NCBI GenBank assembly: GCA_937922155.1
Contig: CAKZVL010000005.1
Coordinates: 1 to 43,735, forward strand
Source of the DNA: an uncultured Paracoccaceae bacterium
Lineage (GTDB): Bacteria > Pseudomonadota > Alphaproteobacteria > Rhodobacterales > Rhodobacteraceae
Reading direction: 5' to 3'
Length of the DNA stretch: 43,735 nt
In this document: positions 16,721 to 30,677 of the stretch, in pieces
Layout: the number at the start of each line of letters is the position of its first letter
Numbering within the stretch: position 1 is the stretch's first letter
Notes under the pieces: model-generated
Databases searched by the model: none
What the model was told of the DNA's origin: nothing
The model's input: only the letters and a program-made list of their open reading frames with translations
Program-made: the position numbers and the translations under genes

Positions 16721-16971
16721 ATGCCTTCGGCGAGAGTATTTTGGGCAAGATGATACATCCTCCCCAGAATGCCCGCTGACGGCACGATTTGAAAGCAAGC
16801 ATTAGGTGGGGCAAGTTGGACGGCGCTCCAACCTGCCCCGGGATAACCCGTCAGACGGGCGATCACCTTGCACGGCCATCGGCTCTCCAGCCTGTACCGC
16901 ACCTTTGGGATAGCAGGTTAACCTTAATATCAGGTGAAGACGTACTGTATCATCTTGCCAAAAAATACTCC
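16721..16971. repeat. Nested inverted-repeat element between DUF1491 and recO
   Basis: Terminal inverted repeats (about 24-25 bp, GAGTATTTT..GGCAAGATGATACA) enclosing a 12-bp stem with one bulge and a 13-bp stem with a 6-nt loop. Confidence 0.75.
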
Positions 16972-16983
16972 AAAACCGTCAGA

Positions 16984-17310
16984 TCATGCCAATGAAGGAT
17001 CGTCCAACAAGTGGCGGGCGTCTTTGTCTTCGACTTCGATTACCCAAAGGTCAGGATCAAAGCTGCGTTGTGCCGTGACTGACGTATCCACGTCCGTTTC
17101 CCGGCCTTCGCTGAGCACAACCCAGGTTCGATCCCCAGACATCAAATCAAAGGCACGTTGATAAAGCCGTGCGTTCCCGTCCAATGTATTCAGCTTGATC
17201 AAAACAGCCCCTGCCGTCGTATCCCCCTTGGCCACAACAAAGGCCGGAATATTCAAAAGGCTGAGGCGTTTGAGGTAGGCCGCGACCCAAATCTCGGCCC
17301 TGAGCCTCAT
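16984..17310 (-). CDS. DUF1491 family protein
   Basis: [41 protein letters not shown]...; located between era and recO. Confidence 0.85.
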   Translation of the reverse strand: MRLRAEIWVAAYLKRLSLLNIPAFVVAKGDTTAGAVLIKLNTLDGNARLYQRAFDLMSGDRTWVVLSEGRETDVDTSVTAQRSFDPDLWVIEVEDKDARHLLDDPSLA

Positions 17311-30639: not shown

Positions 30640-30677
30640 TATCATCTTGCCAAAAATACTCCCGCCGGAGGCATCCG
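30640..30677 (+). repeat. Third copy of the TATCATCTTGCCAAAAATACTC motif
   Basis: TATCATCTTGCCAAAAATACTCCCGCCGGAGGCATCCG begins directly after the fahA stop; shares at least 20 nt with the termini of the 16.7-kb element. Confidence 0.8.

Follow-up and report, generated by a model that had tools for sequence, protein, structure and literature searches.

A small RNA gene between dispersed repeat arms at a DUF1491-recO junction: a candidate bipartite guide in Rhodobacteraceae

The locus and its RNA gene

The window considered here, the whole stretch of 43,735 nucleotides analysed from an uncultured Paracoccaceae bacterium (contig CAKZVL010000005.1), carries the gene order rnc-era-DUF1491-[element]-recO, with every gene on the minus strand, and the subject of this report is the element between DUF1491 and recO. 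The flanking genes encode RecO (PF02565/PF11967) and a DUF1491 protein (PF07372), with era and rnc upstream. A first-pass annotation, made from the letters alone, had described three concentric stems with no convincing coding sequence among them, and had offered a structured RNA, a miniature inverted-repeat transposable element (MITE) or repetitive extragenic palindromic (REP)-type element, or an intra-operon processing site as explanations. Gene calls by a simple codon model likewise place no convincing coding sequence between DUF1491 and recO, the positions of the three stems agree with the sequence, and the concentric arrangement is recovered by RNAfold for positions 16721-16985 (-98.2 kcal/mol, with shuffles at -77.3 +/- 4.9; z = -4.3; none of 200 shuffles equally stable). 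The inverted repeats are real, but the interval is better described otherwise than as a nested stem element, and its most conserved part, positions 16863-16901, lies inside none of the three stems.

The sense strand of the interval is the minus strand, and on comparative evidence what lies between the repeat arms is a putative small RNA gene of about 70-200 nt. About 20 of 36 sampled family members share its conserved core (16863-16901; GCGGTACAGGCTGGAGAGCCGATGGCCGTGCAAGGTGAT), and 35 core copies align nearly gap-free in the order TTAAC-N6/7-TTAACC box, about 22 nt, hairpin and a segment of ~11 nt. The consensus hairpin of these copies, GCGGU-ACA-GGCU-(4-nt loop)-AGCC-GAUG-ACCGC, covaries strongly: 98.7% of cells are paired and five of the nine pairs have changed on both sides, which none of 500 shuffles reproduced, and slid controls fail. 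It is the structured RNA, then, that holds among the explanations first offered, as a conserved gene with compensatory changes; the covarying homologues for which a search of relatives had been proposed do exist, but mostly at loci other than the recO junction.

CtrA full sites have the consensus TTAA-N7-TTAA. The TTAAC-N6/7-TTAACC box, which stands at a near-fixed distance upstream of the hairpin in most of the 35 homologues, is presumably such a site, being assigned by this consensus, and the predicted box gives the RNA gene the upstream signature of a CtrA-controlled gene.

Neither Rfam 15, which gave no relevant match to the element even with permissive thresholds and no match above any family's gathering threshold, nor the open-licence literature, searched by sequence string and by topic, yielded a description, and within these bounds the RNA family is previously undescribed. 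A known small RNA (sRNA) of Paracoccus denitrificans, 'Intergenic 134', has listed homologues in Streptomyces and Chloroflexus (PMC5107571). Its coordinates fall near the RNA gene of that species, but the listed homologues argue against its being the same RNA; no tRNA was found in the region. A further candidate, a leader peptide suggested by the resemblance of the GGAG loop and an AUG to a ribosome site, was rejected, as loops GCCG and GGCG exist and the downstream reading frames disagree.

Distribution and genomic context

Of 150 Rhodobacteraceae genomes sampled evenly across genera, mostly one per genus, 118 have between one and five genes by the covariance model R1, which finds four in the genome of the window itself (G000, 2.99 Mb). 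Hits of the model are also significant in eight sampled genomes of other alphaproteobacterial families (E 3e-7 to 8e-5), with the same anatomy. Several of these distant genes have a sigma-70-like promoter just upstream of the hairpin and a canonical intrinsic terminator just after the guide segment described below, from which the mature RNA there would be about 70-110 nt long. A pattern scan of GTDB gave at least 120 loci in named genomes, nearly all from Rhodobacteraceae among the matches listed. The scan also gave loci in metagenome-assembled genomes (MAGs) assigned to Hyphomicrobium, Nitrospirales and Planctomycetota, where misbinning may be the cause. The gene in a Planctomycetota MAG (L227) has a matching arm and that in the Nitrospirales MAG NPIRA04 (L247) has no arm nearby; either could reflect misbinning or transfer. 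Separately, one small alphaproteobacterial genome (G382; L158-L178) carries three copies of the RNA with one common guide, GAACGACC, and the open reading frame downstream of one of its loci (L165) has, by eye, the appearance of a HigB/RelE-type toxin. Among phages, INPHARED gave no match to the RNA, and a lone IMG/VR match (L299; loop TATA, without an arm) looks like chance.

The homologues lie at loci as varied as thiolase/GST genes beside acyl-CoA dehydrogenase, valS, a tripartite tricarboxylate transporter, trkA-ntrX and carotenoid genes, so that the function is not tied to recO. The intra-operon processing site of the first-pass annotation is left unsupported by these unrelated locations, as is, more generally, the notion that the era-DUF1491-recO operon has here a bidirectional terminator, an attenuator or an element for mRNA processing. 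The intergenic position would suit such an element, as would the CUCC-GGCG-GGAG hairpin followed by UAUUUU that the repeat contains, but the orientation of the repeats is not terminator-like either, and we regard this explanation as largely refuted. A terminator or Shine-Dalgarno-sequestering hairpin was rejected on similar grounds, its orientation and distances to genes being a misfit. What does correspond to an intrinsic terminator in other members of the family (L089, L163, L174, L227) is the position of the variable stem region (Table 1).

The dispersed repeat and the matching of guides and arms

A 32-bp dispersed repeat supplies both outer arms of the interval, in two copies of opposite orientation of which the right one is partial. 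The repeat, GCCTYCGGCGRGAGTATTTTNGGCAAGATGAT, occurs at 66 sites with <=3 mismatches in the genome of the window, and a reversed control pattern occurs at none; all repeat counts given here are pattern-based, and some of the underlying lists are lower bounds (at least the number stated). Palindromic, intergenic and present in many copies, the repeats have the character expected of REPINs, and the first-pass suggestion of a REP-type element is in this sense correct for the outer arms alone. Taken in its entirety, the element is no multi-copy MITE: at the sequence level its interior occurs once, the genome's other, paralogous RNA genes carry different guides, no near-identical copies of the entire element were found, and target-site duplication is not evident by eye.

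An arm of the form N4-TATTT-n(2-6)-N11 flanks the RNA in nearly every full copy, and two segments of the RNA correspond to the two variable parts of this arm. The 11 nt after the hairpin agree with the N11 of the 3' arm at the same locus in 9.3 of 11 letters, compared with 6.9 for shuffled pairs (total 271; maximum of 2000 shuffles 219), and among the named loci listed in the GTDB scan, an independent set, an adjacent arm with >=8/11 guide matches is present at 111 of 120 (shuffled guides: mean 24, maximum 29). Where arm and guide differ by one letter in that set, the guide has G and the repeat A in 95 of 98 cases, at guide position 6 (79) or 5 (13), so that a single G.U or G.T wobble would be nearly constant. 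The hairpin loop, for its part, equals the letters before TATTT in the 3' arm, counting the last three letters, at 28 of 29 loci (shuffle maximum 18). This agreement holds for the loops GGAG, GAGG, GGGG and GGGA, and, outside the 29 loci, also for GGCG, GCCG (on a Thalassococcus plasmid) and GAGA. TATTT itself has no counterpart in the RNA. These shuffle figures are not strict probabilities, since related sequences share history.

Table 1. Features of the element and a further repeat copy in the window
Feature	Position	Strand	Description
3' arm of RNA gene (left outer arm, 16721-16757)	16721-16754	+	full repeat copy ATGCCTTCGGCGAGAGTATTTTGGGCAAGATGAT; one of the 66 sites in the genome
Variable stem region	16771-16860	-	downstream of guide; 12-bp stem 16771-16782/16848-16860, inner 13-bp hairpin 16808-16839
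Second guide	16861-16871	-	GCAAGGTGATC; exposed segment of ~11 nt; repeat has GCAAGATGAT; guide G versus repeat A at position 6
Conserved hairpin	16872-16900	-	GCGGU-ACA-GGCU-[GGAG]-AGCC-GAUG-GCCGU; 35-sequence alignment A1; covariance model R1 77.5 bits
Loop guide	16885-16888	-	GGAG; corresponds to the letters ahead of TATTT in the 3' repeat arm
Putative CtrA-type box	16916-16938	-	TTCA-N7-TTAA..GGTTAACC; upstream of hairpin; first half-site degenerate
5' arm	16949-16970	-	partial repeat copy GAGTATTTTTTGGCAAGATGAT
Second repeat copy in window	30640-30674	-	fumarylacetoacetase gene / metallo-beta-lactamase-fold gene, co-directional; repeat antisense

One question then is whether the matching reflects nothing more than the folding of the RNA on itself, in which case guide and loop would pair with the 3' arm of the same molecule, and the dispersed repeats would be inert copies of that arm. 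The stringency of the 3' arm, which fits 28 of 29 loops compared with 25 of 31 for the 5' arm, is what such a fold predicts. Against it, the 5' arm covaries too, though it lies upstream of the presumed promoter; a terminator precedes the 3' arm in many genes, and in some (L089, L091) the 3' arm is missing; at L164 the arm is in direct orientation; and the dispersed repeats are homogeneous and matched to the RNA within genomes. We therefore consider it very unlikely that intramolecular structure alone matters.

Two observations concern the arms and repeats in other settings. L149 (G000:C83:7652-7737) and L090 (G002:C1) represent a second class of RNA, in whose arms (CAGTTTGATCAGACAAGAGAAA, GGAAGTTTGATTGGACAAAGAAAG) TATTT is replaced by AGTTTGAT. 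On related plasmids of Leisingera, between rfbB and rfbD (L301/L305), the upstream hairpin of the repeat has been replaced and GGGGATATTT..GGCCAGATGAA kept, a swap in which the guide-matched part alone was retained.

Genome-wide repeats change with the RNA

Dispersed CTYCGGCGRRRGTATTT repeats are present in 11 of 12 relatives, each with its own tail. One relative (G029) has two families of tails, from which a second RNA gene was predicted beforehand and then found; its loop, GGGG, and guide, ACGAGGAAGAAGC, fit the repeat family GGGGGTATTT..ACGAGAAAGAAGC. A genome's own guides are the best fit for its own repeats in six of eight genomes. Within Paracoccus, the RNA near trkA/ntrX has in P. denitrificans the loop GGAG and both arms GAGTATTT, and its orthologue in P. 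versutus, P. pantotrophus and P. ferrooxidans the loop GGGG and both arms GGGTATTT. The Paracoccus chromids carry 13-26 dispersed sites each, and at the few orthologous sites compared, GAG in P. denitrificans corresponds to GGG in P. pantotrophus, a difference that appears consistent with one-base changes in place. Such sites may also differ in number: between recG and an Fe-S scaffold gene the repeat of P. ferrooxidans is in tandem (about 46 bp longer), and P. versutus UW1 is without the duplication (L316 versus L318).

Sequence comparison shows that loop, guide and flanking arms change in a coordinated manner between genera, and in six of the eight genomes tested so do the genome-wide repeats. 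Relatedness is no explanation for the coordinated changes in Paracoccus together with the confirmed prediction in G029. Selection on the dispersed sites to follow the RNA is suggested, not proved, by these patterns.

Weighing a guide-like RNA acting in trans

We lean, if only slightly, towards a CtrA-controlled, bipartite guide-like small RNA that would act in trans on the genome's own dispersed repeats. Transcription would be under CtrA control, and the RNA, with its two guides, the 4-nt loop and the single-stranded segment of ~11 nt, would read N4-TATTT-n(2-6)-N11 with TATTT itself unread. It would pair with the complement of the repeat in the orientation given here, keeping a single fixed G.U/G.T wobble, and would do so within a ribonucleoprotein for which the repeats are docking sites. 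Docking is more likely to occur on DNA than on transcripts, because the repeats are intergenic and in both orientations relative to genes: nearly all of the 59 copies with gene calls are intergenic, and those between co-directional genes are antisense in 18 cases and sense in 13, with 15 copies between convergent and 6 between divergent genes. Candidate outcomes would be a roadblock or insulation at operon ends, chromosome organisation and upkeep of the repeats.

Transcripts as targets would suit both the sRNA-like layout and the large number of sites shortly after stop codons. An ordinary trans-acting sRNA under CtrA control, with a hairpin, a seed, a terminator and perhaps bound Hfq, would pair with transcripts carrying the antisense repeat CUUCAUCUUGC-n-AAAUA-CUCC, for example just after stop codons. 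The resemblance to the Hfq class extends to the intrinsic terminators and to the length of about 70-110 nt in distant members; the target strand would be a plausible A-rich single-stranded RNA, the tail side of the repeat faces the 3' end of a gene in 33 of the 52 sites with both neighbours called, often <=20 nt from the stop codon, and a dedicated protein partner would be unnecessary. Yet 13 of the 31 sites between co-directional genes have the wrong orientation for pairing, divergent sites exist, and a regulon of tens of sites would need retargeting in every genus. A further difference from this class is that the target here is a dispersed repeat that covaries with two segments of the RNA. 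On balance we consider an ordinary sRNA unlikely.

A different possibility is a REP/REPIN-like system, mobile or replicating, that takes its specificity from the RNA; the RNA would then determine at which places, or in what way, the 32-bp repeat is copied. In such systems, which have REP-associated tyrosine transposases (RAYTs), the repeats are likewise short, palindromic and intergenic and often form inverted pairs, and the specificity gene is inherited vertically, lies between repeats and has its own genome-specific repeat population; the repeats here are intergenic and orientation-free, and some orthologous sites are without a repeat. Unlike in RAYT systems, the specificity gene here is an RNA, and there is no GTAG motif. 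The protein expected of a mobile system is, moreover, not in evidence: Y1_Tnp (PF01797), the RAYT domain, is in none of the 14 RNA-bearing genomes tested, control genomes being positive, and RAYT was rejected as a partner on this count; IS110 and TnpB, taken up below, are patchy in the same genomes. One repeat of T. mobilis is stable across species, the repeats have A where the guide has G and so are not direct copies of the guide, and the GAG/GG changes in Paracoccus resemble one-base indels in place. Taken together, these points make a system of this kind distinctly improbable.

The two guides also invite comparison with RNA-guided elements. The bridge (seek) RNA of IS110/IS1111 is similarly a small structured RNA whose bipartite guide matches short DNA segments; the present RNA differs in that both guide parts read the same strand, in lying outside any insertion sequence (IS) element and in having dispersed repeats as targets. 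TnpB/IscB omega RNAs and Cas12-type guide RNAs share with it a guide beside a T-rich target motif that is independent of the RNA, here TATTT, but in the present case the guide is internal with a terminator after it, the spacing to TATTT varies by 2-6 nt, and an additional loop guide lies on the other side. Their proteins are too patchy in the same 14 genomes to serve as partner: the IS110 DEDD transposase (PF01548) is absent from eight, and the TnpB zinc-ribbon domain (PF07282) is above cut-off in two, IscB itself not having been searched for.

This lack of a partner among RAYT, IS110 and TnpB is one of several points that tell against a guide acting in trans. Given the stricter match of the 3' arm, folding within the RNA alone accounts for part of the covariation, and L164 has the only clear direct-orientation downstream arm. 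In G001 and G013 no RNA matching the main repeat families, GCTCAAAAGA and AAGCAAAGAG, was found (G001 was not searched with the model); if the RNA does act on the repeats, guides similar to GCTCAGAAGA and AAGCGAAGAG would be expected in the RNAs of these families. Finally, P. versutus retains GAG at one dispersed site despite the loop GGGG of its RNA, and the comparison of orthologous sites in Paracoccus covers few sites. By default, the partner of a trans-acting guide could be a housekeeping protein, such as an RNA chaperone or a nucleoid protein.

Significance

A broader reading, which we put forward tentatively as possible, is that of a new RNA-guided chromosomal system of Alphaproteobacteria, in which a two-guide RNA under CtrA, and hence cell-cycle, control would bring a protein, probably a housekeeping one, to dozens of sites of the form N4-TATTT-n-N11 in the DNA of each chromosome, the RNA and its sites coevolving as species-specific pairs, with several independent pairs in some genomes. 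The bipartite recognition, if programmable, would be of interest to tool builders, and the RNA offers a direct way into a possible RNA-guided mechanism with a protein outside the three known kinds tested. The RNA family itself is present in most genera of Rhodobacteraceae and in other Alphaproteobacteria, and the reading, if true, would account for the species-specific tails of the TATTT-containing intergenic repeats that are common in these bacteria.
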